Shown in pieces: positions 25,552 through 29,463 of a stretch of DNA of 41,896 nt. Each line of letters starts with the position of its first letter. Within the stretch, counting starts at the first letter, position 1. The DNA comes from an uncultured Gammaproteobacteria bacterium (lineage in GTDB: Bacteria > Pseudomonadota > Gammaproteobacteria > Pseudomonadales > Azotimanducaceae). Both the position numbers and the translations under genes were made by a program. The DNA is taken from the NCBI GenBank assembly GCA_913050035.1, contig CAJXAC010000015.1, forward strand, positions 1 through 41,896. The letters are read 5' to 3'. Below the pieces are notes generated by a model. That model was not told the origin of the DNA and did not search any database. It was given only the letters and a program-made list of their open reading frames with translations.

Positions 25552-26340
25552 TTAGCCCGCGTCTTCTATGTAGCCGTTTAAGCGCAGAGCTTCGAGCAGA
25601 CCCACGAGGATCAGATCAGAGACCACGTGGTCGAATAAATCCTCGCGGTCAAACAGGTGGGCGAAACCGCCGGTGGCAATCACCACTGGCGGTTCCTCGG
25701 CAAATACTTCCGCACTGATGCGCGAGGTCAGTTCGCGCACCATGCCAACGTTGCTCCAATACAGACCTCGCTGGATGCTCTCAGTCGTGGTCTTACCCAT
25801 CGCCTCCTTGGCGGGTTTGATTTCTACCGAAGGTAATTTCGCAGTTTTAGATTCCAGAGCTTCCATAGCCAAACGGATGCCGGGCATGATGTTGCCACCC
25901 AAGAACACCCGATCTTTGGACACCGCACAGACCGTGGTGGCGGTACCAAAGTCGACAACAATAAGATTACGCTCAGGAAACAATTTAACCGCCCCCATGG
26001 CGTCGGCAATACGATCGCTGCCCACTTCCTTGGGATCTTTGTAGCTAATCTGCAAACCGGTTTTTAACCCCGGCCGCAGCACCATGGGGTCGACGTCAAA
26101 ATATTTCTGACAGCATGCCCATAGGGTGTAGTTCAATTCGGGTACCACCGACGAAATGCCAATGGTTTTGACCGCTTCTGGCGCCACGCCGTTCTCCCGC
26201 AAAGCGCCGCGCAGAAACACCCCGATTTCATCCGACGAACTGCGCGACGTTGAGGCATAACGGAATTGCACACTCAATTCGCCACCGTCAAAAACTCCGC
26301 AAAAGATCTGACTATTACCAACGTCGAGTACAAGAATCAT
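25552..26340 (-). CDS. coaX: Type III pantothenate kinase
   Basis: CoaX phosphorylates pantothenate, the first committed step to CoA, and needs a monovalent cation. The 262-aa protein shows the ASKHA nucleotide site LVLDVGNSQIFCGVFDGG at the N-terminus, EVGSDRIADAMGA and VVDFGTATTVCAVS in the middle, and ATGGFAHLF near the end. It resembles the Legionella/Francisella type more than the Pseudomonas type, judging from my memory of those proteins. It is the last gene after panC (17-base gap), so panB-panC-coaX makes pantothenate and then phosphorylates it. Confidence 0.95.
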   Translation of the reverse strand: MILVLDVGNSQIFCGVFDGGELSVQFRYASTSRSSSDEIGVFLRGALRENGVAPEAVKTIGISSVVPELNYTLWACCQKYFDVDPMVLRPGLKTGLQISYKDPKEVGSDRIADAMGAVKLFPERNLIVVDFGTATTVCAVSKDRVFLGGNIMPGIRLAMEALESKTAKLPSVEIKPAKEAMGKTTTESIQRGLYWSNVGMVRELTSRISAEVFAEEPPVVIATGGFAHLFDREDLFDHVVSDLILVGLLEALRLNGYIEDAG

Positions 26341-26357: not shown

Positions 26358-27146
26358 CTAGTGCACATCCACCGGCTGTGGTGGTGGGCAATTATCAATT
26401 AACCGTACCTCACCGTTGCCGCTGGGCAGCACAATGGCGCCAAAGCGTCGACCGGCGTGGGTTTCCACATAATCTACCCGCACGCCCAGCGCTTGCAGTT
26501 GCGCAACAGCCGCGTCATCACTCGGTGCGTTGTGCAGTATCTTATTAAACTGCCCAGCCTTGGCTCGCGCGCATGCATCAAGCAATTGATTACGCGACGA
26601 CATGGCCAACCCGTCCGCTTCGCGCACGGTATCGCAACCAATAATTTGCACCGGCAAAAAGAACGCCGCACTCATATCTTGAATCAAGCGGAACTGCTGA
26701 TAGTCCTTGAGACCGAAATACGCTGTATTTGGACTAACAATATTTAACAGCTTCATCACCACGGTCAGCACACCGGTAAAATGTCCCGGCCGATCAGCCC
26801 CACACAACCCTTTACTAAATCGGGTCTCGTCCAACTGAAAGCTAAAGTCATCGGGGTAGATCTGCGCATAGGTTGGCAGCAGTACAGCGTCCACCCCTGC
26901 CTGTTCTGCCATCTGCAAATCAGCGTCTAATGTTGCAGGGTAGGCTGCTAGATCTTTGGGGTCGTTAAACTGAGTGGCGTTAAGGTAAATACTCAACGCC
27001 GTCTTGCTGTTTTCAGCCACACAGCGCTGCAATAGCGACTGATGCCCAGCATGCAGCGCACCCATAGTCGGCACAAAGCCTAAGTCTTCATCATCAAGCC
27101 CACGGCGCCAATCGCGCCACTGCTCAAGATCAGTAAAAACTTTCAC
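26358..27146 (-). CDS. panC: Pantothenate synthetase
   Basis: PanC joins pantoate and beta-alanine using ATP, via a pantoyl-adenylate. The 262-aa protein has the HxGH nucleotidyl-transferase motif (TMGALHAGH, H32 and H35) and YFGLKDYQQFRLIQDM. It also has the DGLAMSSRN loop, which corresponds to the KMSKS-like segment. The C-terminus is slightly shorter than in E. coli (283 aa). The start overlaps the panB stop by four bases (ATGA), so translation is coupled. Confidence 0.97.
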   Translation of the reverse strand: MKVFTDLEQWRDWRRGLDDEDLGFVPTMGALHAGHQSLLQRCVAENSKTALSIYLNATQFNDPKDLAAYPATLDADLQMAEQAGVDAVLLPTYAQIYPDDFSFQLDETRFSKGLCGADRPGHFTGVLTVVMKLLNIVSPNTAYFGLKDYQQFRLIQDMSAAFFLPVQIIGCDTVREADGLAMSSRNQLLDACARAKAGQFNKILHNAPSDDAAVAQLQALGVRVDYVETHAGRRFGAIVLPSGNGEVRLIDNCPPPQPVDVH

Positions 27147-27931
27147 TGATAAGCTTCCTGGCAGGTCGGAAATGCCCCTTCTGCCACGTCATTGTGAAAA
27201 TGATTCACCGCATCTGTGAGCGCTTGATGCCCGGCCATGTAATGCCGCAAAAACTTTGGCTTAAAGTCTGCCTGCATGCCCAGTAAGTCCTGCAGCACCA
27301 GCACTTGGCCATCAGTAAAGGGACCAGCACCAATGCCTATGGTCGGTATAGACAACGCCTGAGAGATTTTGCGACCGAGCATTTGCGGTACACATTCAAG
27401 CACTAGAGCAAAACAGCCCGCCTGCTCCAAAGCCTTGGCATCCGCCAATATCTGCTCCGCCGCTGCCTCAGCACGGCCTTGTACCTTGTGGCCACCAAAA
27501 GCCTCAACAGACTGTGGGGTTAAACCCAAGTGACCCATAACCGGCACACCGGACTCAACAATGCGCGCCATCAGATCAAGCTGCCCGGCAGCGCCTTCAA
27601 TCTTCACCGCGTTGCTGCCGGCACGCATCAGTTGCGCAACCCCTTCCAAAGCCACGTCTTGGCTATACCGGGCCTGCATAAATGGCATGTCACCGACAAT
27701 AAATTTGCTCGGTGCACCGCGGCGTACAGCGGCAATGTGCGTTGCCATCATGTCCACAGTGGCGTGCACTGTACTTGGAAACCCGTGCATAACCATGGCC
27801 AAACTGTCGCCCACCAGAATAGTGTCGACATCCGTCTGGTCGAGGATTTGTGCCGACCAAAAGTCGTAACACGTCACCATAGAGAGTTTTTCGCCACAGA
27901 CTTTGCGGCGCGCGAAATCATTAATGTTCAT
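27143..27931 (-). CDS. panB: 3-methyl-2-oxobutanoate hydroxymethyltransferase
   Basis: PanB makes ketopantoate from 2-oxoisovalerate and methylene-tetrahydrofolate. The 262-aa TIM-barrel protein has MVTCYDFWSAQI near residue 18, the metal site LVGDSLAMVMHG (D42), GDMPFM and the catalytic region FALVLECVPQMLG. It is the first gene of panB-panC-coaX. The predicted Shine-Dalgarno GGAG (27945-27942, ten bases before the ATG) is inside a perfect hairpin, described separately. Neither panD nor panE (ilvC-like) is seen in the window. Confidence 0.97.
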   Translation of the reverse strand: MNINDFARRKVCGEKLSMVTCYDFWSAQILDQTDVDTILVGDSLAMVMHGFPSTVHATVDMMATHIAAVRRGAPSKFIVGDMPFMQARYSQDVALEGVAQLMRAGSNAVKIEGAAGQLDLMARIVESGVPVMGHLGLTPQSVEAFGGHKVQGRAEAAAEQILADAKALEQAGCFALVLECVPQMLGRKISQALSIPTIGIGAGPFTDGQVLVLQDLLGMQADFKPKFLRHYMAGHQALTDAVNHFHNDVAEGAFPTCQEAYQ

Positions 27932-27938
27932 TGAATCA

Positions 27939-27980
27939 GTGCTCCACGCAACAGGAGCACCGTGTTCGATTGCACGAACA
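27939..27980 (-). promoter_or_regulatory. Tandem hairpins burying the panB ribosome binding site
   Basis: In the minus-strand RNA, TGTTCG (27980-27975) pairs with CGAACA (27968-27963). Then GTGCTCC (27960-27954) pairs perfectly with GGAGCAC (27945-27939) across an 8-base loop. The second stem contains the only plausible Shine-Dalgarno of panB (GGAG). When folded it should hide the site, so translation of panB, and of the coupled panC, may be switchable. Known pan-motif RNAs also come as tandem hairpins before pan genes, but their conserved bulged adenosines are not seen here. Confidence 0.45.
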
Positions 27981-28145
27981 GGCTAACTAGTAACATACCG
28001 GCGCTTCCTGGTACCTGCCTAAAAGATCAGGTCCTAACGTTGTATGAATCAGATCGAAAAGATCCCCCCAGTCTCTGCCTGCAAGCCTTTAGGGCTAGCT
28101 GTGGTCAGAGCTTGGGCGAAAAGTACCGTAACCAGGTTAGCCTGT
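27978..28145 (-). ncRNA. Candidate structured RNA upstream of panB
   Basis: A perfect 10-bp stem, ACAGGCTAAC (27978-27987) with GTTAGCCTGT (28136-28145), encloses about 150 bases of ordered local pairing. CCTGGT (28007) can pair with ACCAGG (28131). Hairpins occur at ACCTG/CAGGT (28013-28032), GATC-gaaaa-GATC (28052-28064) and CTCTG/CAGAG (28073-28110), the last enclosing GCAAGCC/GGCTAGC. GTTAGCCT can instead pair locally with AGG and CTAACC (28150-28160), overlapping the stop of the upstream gene, which gives two exclusive states. Both strands could fold this way. The minus strand is preferred because it would form the panB leader. No known RNA family is recognised. Confidence 0.35.
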
Positions 28146-28154
28146 CGATAGGTA

Positions 28155-29171
28155 CTAACCCGGCTGATAACCGTTCATAGTCACCACCGCCTTACCGATA
28201 ACCTCGCGATTTTCCAACAAGCGCATAGCGTCCACTGCCTGTTCTAGGGGCAGCGCATGGCTAATGTAGGGGTCGATCTCGCCAGCCTCGGCCATAGCGT
28301 GCAAACGGTCTCGATTTTCCTGACCCTTTACTGGGTCCAGCCGGCCGTATTCACCAGCACGCACACCAATAACCGACAACTGCTTAATCAGAATTAAATT
28401 TACCGCCGCCTGCGGCCAACGACCACTGGTAAAGCCAATGGTTAACAGCCGCCCGCCAACGTTGACACAGCGCATGCTCTCATCAAATACATCACCCCCC
28501 ACCGGGTCGTACACCACATCGGCACCGCGACCCTCGGTAAGCGCCTTAACCTGATCGCGAAAGCCGCCTAACGAACCATCCGCTTGAGTGTAGTTAATAA
28601 CATGGTCAGCCCCGCGCGACTGCACCACTGCTAACTTATCGTCGCGGCCGCCGGTACCGATGACCTGAGCACCGAAGTATTTGCCCAAATCCACCGCCGC
28701 CATGCCGACACCACCGGTAGCACCGTGCACGAGCAAATGTTCGCCGGGCTGCAAATCACCGCGCCGGTACAGGGCGACATAGGCCGTTAAATAGGCGGTT
28801 TGATAACTGGCCGCCTTGGCGTAGTCCATACCCTTGGGCAGCGGTTTCAGCTGGGACTCATCCACTACCACGGCCTCGGCAAACCCGCCGTAACGCATAC
28901 TGATAATGACCGCATCACCTTCTTTTACCGAAACCCCCGGCCCACAGACCTCCACATCGCCGGCCGCTTCACCCCCAGGGGCAAAGGGCAATGGCGGCTT
29001 AAACTGATATTTGCCCTGAATCATCAATAGATCTGGAAAGTTCACCGCACAGGCTTTTAGGCGCACCCGCACCTGTCCAGGGCCGGGCGCAGGCATGTCC
29101 ACCTCACGCAATACCACCGAGCCAATGTCTTCCGAAATCGCGTCGCACATAAGCGCGTTAATTCGCGTCAT
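28155..29171 (-). CDS. NADPH:quinone oxidoreductase (zinc-free MDR family)
   Basis: The 338-aa protein belongs to the medium-chain dehydrogenase/reductase superfamily, quinone reductase branch. The N-terminal GroES-like domain includes ACAVNFPDLLMIQGKYQFKP and lacks the zinc cysteines. The cofactor site LLVHGATGGVGMAAVDLGKYFGA lies near residues 135-157, and ADHVINYTQ follows. It likely reduces quinones or enoyl compounds with NADPH. The ATG at 29171 has GGGGAGG four bases before it; a start five codons upstream is less likely. Its stop codon lies inside the alternative hairpin of the candidate RNA. Confidence 0.92.
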   Translation of the reverse strand: MTRINALMCDAISEDIGSVVLREVDMPAPGPGQVRVRLKACAVNFPDLLMIQGKYQFKPPLPFAPGGEAAGDVEVCGPGVSVKEGDAVIISMRYGGFAEAVVVDESQLKPLPKGMDYAKAASYQTAYLTAYVALYRRGDLQPGEHLLVHGATGGVGMAAVDLGKYFGAQVIGTGGRDDKLAVVQSRGADHVINYTQADGSLGGFRDQVKALTEGRGADVVYDPVGGDVFDESMRCVNVGGRLLTIGFTSGRWPQAAVNLILIKQLSVIGVRAGEYGRLDPVKGQENRDRLHAMAEAGEIDPYISHALPLEQAVDAMRLLENREVIGKAVVTMNGYQPG

Positions 29172-29307
29172 AGAGCCTCCCCACATTGTTACAAGGTGCC
29201 CACAAACCCATGGTCACCCGGGCGGCGACCTAAGCACCGCGCATGCCTAGATGGATTGATCAGATAAATCTGCTTCAGCGCCCCCAAAACACGCCAAGCA
29301 AAAAGAC

Positions 29308-29463
29308 CTAAAGCGCCAACACCATCGCCAAAATCAGTACCGCGAACGCAATAACCCAAATCATGCCGGTACCGTCGGTTGCCCGTTGCTCTGGATCTGC
29401 TCCATCTTGCTGTTCAGACTGGTCAAGTTGGTCAGACTGCTCGGTATTCTCTTCATCGCTCAT
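29308..29463 (-). CDS. Small single-span membrane protein
   Basis: The 51-aa protein begins MSDEENTEQSDQLDQSEQQD, a very acidic, glutamine-rich head of about 32 residues. It ends in one hydrophobic helix (MIWVIAFAVLILAMVLAL) at the very C-terminus, as in tail-anchored proteins. GGAG lies about nine bases before the ATG at 29463. I do not know a family or function. The frame is open further upstream, but the extra residues look unrelated. Neighbours are a nitroreductase upstream and a quinone reductase downstream, all on the same strand. The 136 bases between this gene and the quinone reductase start show nothing obvious. Confidence 0.55.
   Translation of the reverse strand: MSDEENTEQSDQLDQSEQQDGADPEQRATDGTGMIWVIAFAVLILAMVLAL

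Follow-up and report, generated by a model that had tools for sequence, protein, structure and literature searches.

What does the stretch between a quinone oxidoreductase gene and panB, the first gene of a pantothenate operon, do in an uncultured gammaproteobacterium? We examined this question in a contig of 41,896 nt (hereafter the window), where an earlier note had described, at 27978-28160, a candidate RNA with two mutually exclusive folds upstream of panB. The locus was analyzed by folding, by comparison with homologous leaders, and by covariance-model and pattern searches of related genomes.

The panB leader and its gene neighborhood

The genes on the minus strand are ordered qor-like, leader, panB, panC, and coaX. 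The upstream neighbor, which lies outside the RNA, is a qor-like zinc-binding/quinone oxidoreductase gene (28155..29186; Pfam PF00107 and PF08240). Downstream of the leader are panB (ketopantoate hydroxymethyltransferase, 27143..27931; PF02548, E 3.6e-102), panC (pantoate-beta-alanine ligase, 26358..27146; PF02569, E 2.2e-76), and coaX (type III pantothenate kinase, 25552..26340; PF03309, E 9.1e-68), all on the minus strand. Because coaX begins only 17 nt after panC, it is probably part of the same operon as panB-panC in the window. The leader extends from the qor stop to the panB start (27932..28154, minus strand) and is transcribed from 28154 to 27932.

A DNA search of 96 other genomes returned homologues of approximately full leader length in five, with 77-97% identity, all of them from the window's own genus, a gammaproteobacterial genus of the K189A clade (a marine clade including HTCC2089); the leader is thus homologous in six genomes of that genus. 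The interval is bounded by inverted repeats of about 10 bp, as might be expected of chance secondary structure or of a mobile repeat. We consider the probability of either to be negligible, as the position and covariation of the element are conserved across genera and in a second order; a mobile repeat was ruled out because the whole leader is present as a single copy in its genome.

The stretch might also serve in the processing or stability of a qor-panB mRNA, or attenuate its transcription, given that it lies between two co-directed genes and that no sigma-70-like promoter was found in 27900-29350. We regard this as quite unlikely: no terminator-like site (a Rho-independent hairpin with a U tract) was found in the leader (27900-28154), and the element stays before panB, coaX, or coaBC despite changed upstream neighbors and overlaps start codons (see below).

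Two observations concern the upstream neighbors in other genomes. In one of these (L045 in G004, 250-1274) the qor homologue matches as two overlapping pieces in different frames and may be frameshifted or mis-assembled. At four loci of neighboring genomes (L069, L070, L071, and L072) the panB leader is closely preceded by a tRNA gene; the Rfam "Plastid-ycf2" matches at these loci were rejected, being the upstream tRNA read on the other strand.

The two exclusive folds

Both of the stems described earlier are present in the window. On the minus strand, 28136-28145 pairs with 27978-27987 to form the 10-bp closing stem, which has a probability of 0.5-1.0 in the thermodynamic ensemble, and 28155-28160, which contains the qor stop TAG, can pair instead with 28135-28140; judged by eye, this alternative hairpin does reach the 9 bp originally given, with one G-U pair. 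The minus strand folds at -66.4 kcal/mol as compared to -53.4 kcal/mol for shuffled sequences (z -2.94, with 1 of 200 shuffles as good), and the plus strand fold has a z of -2.38 relative to shuffles.

Across the six homologous leaders, 10, 10, 6, 6, 6, and 4 of the 10 closing pairs are kept, and the 6-bp core of the alternative hairpin retains 6, 6, 3, 4, 4, and 4 pairs. Both stems are intact in only two of the six leaders, and the two exclusive folds are a property of the window genome and its nearest relative. We rejected the exclusive stems as a conserved switch, the other four leaders keeping 4-6 of 10 and 3-4 of 6 pairs. Conservation lies instead in a block of about 75 nt within the domain, which is kept almost letter for letter, and in hairpins downstream of the interval first noted. 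The proposal of a riboswitch or translation-linked switch therefore survives in one part, a conserved cis-regulatory RNA of the pantothenate operon that would serve as a platform for control at the level of translation, and falls in the other, as the opposition of closing stem to stop-codon hairpin is not conserved.

Several other candidates were discarded. A CAUAC/GUAUG helix proposed by RNAalifold is invariant, is without covariation support, and has a probability of 0.02 in the window ensemble. A resemblance to the TPP riboswitch, seen by eye, had no Rfam match, and the sub-threshold Rfam matches in the window, mir-4451 and Flavi_CRE, were also rejected.

Two hairpins with bulged adenosines

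Two hairpins in the leader have a common geometry, which we defined as two bulged adenosines exactly 5 bp apart with a YC/GR step above and at least 2 pairs below. Hairpin 1 (28070..28112, minus strand) has the form AG-CUCUG-A-CC(23-nt loop)GG-CAGAG-A-CU with bulged A at 28105 and 28072, and hairpin 2 (28010..28034, minus strand) the form GG-ACCUG-A-UC(UUUUA)GG-CAGGU-A-CC with bulged A at 28027 and 28012. Between them is a small hairpin, GGAUC-UUUUC-GAUC (28052..28065, minus strand), found only in close relatives, whose five pairs are unchanged in all six. A stem with two conserved bulged A, usually in tandem, is how the pan RNA motif is described in the available passages of its first report (RF01749; Weinberg et al., 2010, PMC2864571). 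The earlier statement that no known family could be recognized was thus wrong on structural grounds, as these are tandem hairpins with the geometry of the pan motif, though Rfam's own model gives them no score.

Hairpin 1 keeps 5 of 5 central pairs in six of six close relatives, and over 17 leaders it shows changes on both sides at 7 of its 9 pairs. Hairpin 2, which has an ensemble probability of 0.88-0.97 in the window, is paired in 100% of cells over the same 17 leaders; its sequence is nearly invariant, which argues for recognition of that sequence and adds little covariation. For the tandem as a whole, 99.4% of cells are paired and 9 pairs have both-side changes, a result matched by none of 500 shuffles, and sliding the partner by 1-3 columns lowers pairing to 30-43%. 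Since the 17-leader alignment had been fitted to the covariance model, a second test was carried out on a sequence-only alignment of 26 leaders from a second order (a set that omits loci with other hairpin lengths or truncated flanks and also omits L212 and L229, which did fit). RNAalifold, unaided, returned exactly the two bulged-A hairpins from this alignment, and hairpin 1 again shows compensatory changes, for example G-C in 14 leaders and A-U in 11. The earlier note had named a lack of conserved pairing upstream of relatives' panB genes as grounds for abandoning the candidate; such pairing was looked for and is present, in the bulged-A hairpins.

A strict descriptor of this geometry was also scanned over 36 panB leaders, eight panB loci that duplicate others being skipped. 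At least one hairpin was found in 35 of the leaders and at least two in 18, whereas shuffled leaders gave 0.018 hairpins each and reverse complements 0.023.

Some leaders have a third hairpin with bulged A and pan geometry, in which the panB Shine-Dalgarno itself lies; it was observed in L081, L101, L116, L119, L132, L145, and L148 at about -31 to -4 before panB (-40 to -13 in L119), e.g., GC-AUUCU-A-CC(..)GG-AGAAU-A-GC. In L043 (G029) the contig starts within the leader, and only the 3' strand of hairpin 2 is visible, directly before GGAGG.

Burial of the panB Shine-Dalgarno

Two more conserved hairpins lie closer to panB. The first, UGUUCG-ugcaau-CGAACA (27963..27980, minus strand), covaries, with 5 of 5 pairs in six of six leaders and both-side changes (GUUCG/CGAAC, GUUCA/UGAAC, and GUCCA/UGGAC). 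The second is a sequestor hairpin, CGGUGCUCC(uguugcgu)GGAGCACUG (27937..27962, minus strand), which buries the panB Shine-Dalgarno GGAG (27942-27945) and keeps 7 of 7 core pairs in six of six relatives, several of them by way of G-U. The unpaired probability of the Shine-Dalgarno in the window is 0.00, as compared to 0.34 when the 5' arm is shuffled. Over 76 leaders, 16 of 92 without a separate or recognizable Shine-Dalgarno region having been set aside, the corresponding values are 0.15 and 0.27, with a p of 8e-7 that is too small since the leaders are related. In leaders other than the window's, the end of hairpin 2 is 1-10 nt away from the start codon. Judging from these predicted structures, what buries the translation start is a separate sequestor hairpin in the case of the window and, for other gammaproteobacteria, the pan hairpin, and we have moderate confidence that the element acts on translation in the window.

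The 3' flank of hairpin 2 (GGAAGCGCC, 28000..28008, minus strand), invariant in the six leaders, is part of a proposed antisequestor: AGCGCCG (27999-28005) can pair with CGGUGCU (27956-27962). In the window this duplex has an energy of -20.3 kcal/mol, with 1.5% of shuffles as good, and forcing the alternative gives a fold of -74.7 as compared to -83.9 for the MFE. For several relatives, the possible pairing is between GAGGGAC in hairpin 2 and GUCCCUC in the sequestor. The complementarity between hairpin 2 and sequestor over 78 leaders is -14.8, vs. -12.5 for shuffled sequences (p 2e-5) and -13.35 for sequences crossed between genomes (p 0.011), p-values that are too small since the genomes are related; the margin is clear over shuffles and slight over swapped genomes. 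These predicted pairings, for which support is moderate, suggest that hairpin 2 and the sequestor are linked.

Distribution in the family and target genes

A covariance model built from the six leaders was searched against 206 genomes of the family at E<=0.1, which resulted in 14 matched genomes, with all matches, including the weak ones, located directly upstream of panB. A refined tandem model (R2) gave 113 matches in 104 of the 206 genomes. Assigned by their coordinates relative to panB and by reading of the loci, 99 of these are before panB, 9 before coaX, 1 before coaBC-coaX, and 4 elsewhere, the last of which are probably spurious. Pfam confirmed L105, L106, L108, and L137, three coaX in all together with the coaBC-coaX pair, and the five other coaX genes were named by near-identical translations. 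The exact pattern of hairpin 2 occurs in 94 of the 206 genomes and the reversed pattern in none. About half of the family lacked the element in these searches, R2 leaving 102 of 206 genomes unmatched and the pattern 112. When 390 genomes sampled from the order were scanned, R2 matched eight; seven belong to this family and the eighth match is false.

The window has its coaX within the panB operon, downstream of the element. Where coaX or coaBC is separate, as in other genera, it has its own hairpin before it, so the regulon follows the pathway, not one gene. In some genomes (G150, G151, and G152) panB and coaX both carry the element, and some coaX leaders have a single hairpin according to the descriptor.

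The matches set aside as spurious include G575, which lies inside an ORF (L084) that we take, from its translation, to be dnaE-like, and G209:C37, G185:C8, G186:C143, G192:C114, and G099:C17. A sub-threshold match of the Rfam pan model at G617:C12 (L104) was likewise judged spurious, the locus being without panB. One genome has panB twice (G001:C42 and G001:C48), each copy carrying the element and scoring the same; the genome's contamination is listed at 7%, and one copy may be a second strain's.

A start codon in the hairpin loop

Among 185 genomes sampled from the class, the pattern was found in 10, i.e., in 9 besides the window's own. At these loci the hairpin is GGACUUGAUC-AUGA-GACAGGUACC or similar, with the AUG within the loop and a GGA(GGA)-type Shine-Dalgarno overlapping the 5' strand. 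The hairpin starts PanG-like DUF2520 genes at four loci, with panB directly after at three and approximately 136 nt on at the fourth. PanG is described as a ketopantoate reductase (in the passage available from PMC5449765), and we infer that the DUF2520 proteins are PanG. At two loci MFS transporter genes start inside the hairpin (L198:1511-2758 and L205:1-1166, minus strand), and elsewhere a short leader ORF before panB does so. The two MFS proteins, which score far below the NCBIfam cut-offs of efflux families, are possibly importers of pantothenate or of a CoA precursor.

In the second order, which is also gammaproteobacterial, the hairpin is present in 73 of 85 genomes and the reversed pattern in none; at the loci read, its loop holds the start codon. 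The leader ORF ends in an ATGA overlap with the panB start at 23 of 30 loci, as compared to an expectation of 8.6 with shuffled spacers, and one locus of the 30 has the panB start within the hairpin. At L208 the leader ORF before panB consists of a start and a stop only, UGA coming directly after the loop AUG (AUG-UGA).

An AUG in the loop and an ORF so often overlapping panB are what would be seen if a short ORF starting in the hairpin controlled panB through coupling and the signal were sensed by the peptide or by its codons. We consider such a leader-peptide device very unlikely, given that the peptides are not conserved past MRQVP, from which it follows that the RNA is what is kept: the constant part is an RNA hairpin, not a peptide. 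In other genomes, moreover, what starts in this hairpin is panB, a PanG-like gene, or an MFS gene, and some copies, the window's among them, have no AUG.

Proposed mechanism and effector

Taken together, these results suggest that a tandem pan-type element in the panB leader probably regulates panB-panC-coaX translation, with CoA or a late CoA precursor as the most likely effector. Comparison of related leaders shows the pair of hairpins with a strictly kept geometry, their position ahead of pantothenate and CoA genes, and the buried translation start; the direction of regulation and the effector we infer from gene content alone. The element follows panB, the PanG-like gene, coaX, and coaBC wherever these are placed, which is why CoA or a late CoA precursor appears the most likely effector. 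The wider regulon points to a signal from the CoA pathway, with low to moderate confidence as to the ligand itself.

Translation of the pantothenate and CoA genes is thus probably under feedback control by a compound of the CoA pathway. With ample end product, the effector, CoA or a late CoA precursor acting on the RNA directly or through a protein, would bind the two bulged-A hairpins, the Shine-Dalgarno would remain buried, and translation would stop. When the end product is scarce, the hairpin 2 region would open and could pair with the 5' arm of the sequestor, which would free the Shine-Dalgarno.

How the effector would be sensed admits two readings. In one, the hairpins work as an operator at which a protein controls translation, for instance a dimeric RNA-binding protein responsive to CoA or pantothenate or a pathway enzyme acting on its own mRNA, and no metabolite aptamer is involved. 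Consistent with such an operator, the sequence of hairpin 2 hardly varies, as in a site bound by protein, single hairpins are found by the descriptor in some coaX leaders, and the discoverers of the pan motif argued, in the passage available, that two small similar hairpins suggest a dimer (PMC2864571). We give the operator somewhat less than an even chance, bearing in mind that simple tandem hairpins can also bind metabolites, as in the NAD+-I riboswitch.

In the other reading, which we put forward tentatively, the pan pair may itself be a direct CoA-sensing RNA (for CoA, dephospho-CoA, or phosphopantetheine) and so the missing CoA riboswitch. Such an RNA would govern the pathway from ketopantoate (panB and the PanG-like gene) by way of coaX up to the synthesis of phosphopantothenoylcysteine (coaBC). 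In one order, where it folds over the initiation codon, the aptamer would be the translation block. Passages in reviews of riboswitch ligands treat the missing CoA sensor as a notable blind spot (PMC9971707). The compact forms, with one or two hairpins over the start codon, amount to small constructs, which makes the question of the ligand directly testable.

Comparison with known systems

The window element most closely resembles the pan motif (RF01749). The Rfam consensus, CUG-CCUGG-A-UCC..GGA-CCGGG-A-CAG, agrees in the 5-bp spacing and the YC/GR tip and passes our descriptor; both have two bulged A per stem and a tandem of two hairpins, and panB, the gene behind the window element and behind 99 of the 113 R2 matches, is among the published targets, which in the available passages are the panB, panC, and aspartate decarboxylase (panD) genes (PMC2864571). 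The same passages give the range of the motif as Chloroflexi, Firmicutes, and deltaproteobacteria (PMC2864571), and pan leaders are reported in Bacillus transcriptomes in the excerpts at hand (PMC4342826, PMC4634765). The window element is gammaproteobacterial and thus extends this range. It differs further in that hairpin 2 of the gammaproteobacterial form is nearly fixed (GGACUUGAUC..GACAGGUACC) and hairpin 1 is often long-looped and, relative to the available part of the published description, in that the genes behind the element also include coaX, coaBC, a PanG-like gene, and an MFS gene and that the start codon can lie inside it. With the same hairpin placed before coaX and coaBC, the signal to be expected from that description would move from pantothenate towards CoA.

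The Rfam pan model itself had no match in the window, either at its gathering cut-off (36.2 bits) or at E<=10. Below the cut-off it reaches 2 of the 206 family genomes, where both matches fall on this element upstream of panB, and 1 of 369 class genomes. As Rfam's model gives the window no score, membership of the pan class rests on geometry, tandem arrangement, and context; the cut-off is a measure of Rfam's model rather than a definition of the motif, and the public model misses most of the gammaproteobacterial copies examined here. With high confidence for a structure predicted in this way, we interpret the window element as a pan-type regulatory leader, a gammaproteobacterial variant of an orphan RNA class. 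A search of the open PubMed Central set returned no paper that connects pan with coaX or coaBC or deals with a ligand of pan.

In its manner of working, the element can be likened to the NAD+-I (nadA motif) riboswitch, in which two small hairpin domains stand in tandem before cofactor-synthesis genes and bind a metabolite. The two are alike in having tandem small hairpins before cofactor genes and differ in sequence and in the genes concerned. Finally, the element can be set beside a hypothetical CoA riboswitch. The available passages of reviews from 2022 list no validated CoA riboswitch class (PMC9971707, PMC10043782), and the genes found here, panB, panC, coaX, and coaBC, are the regulon that a CoA sensor should control.
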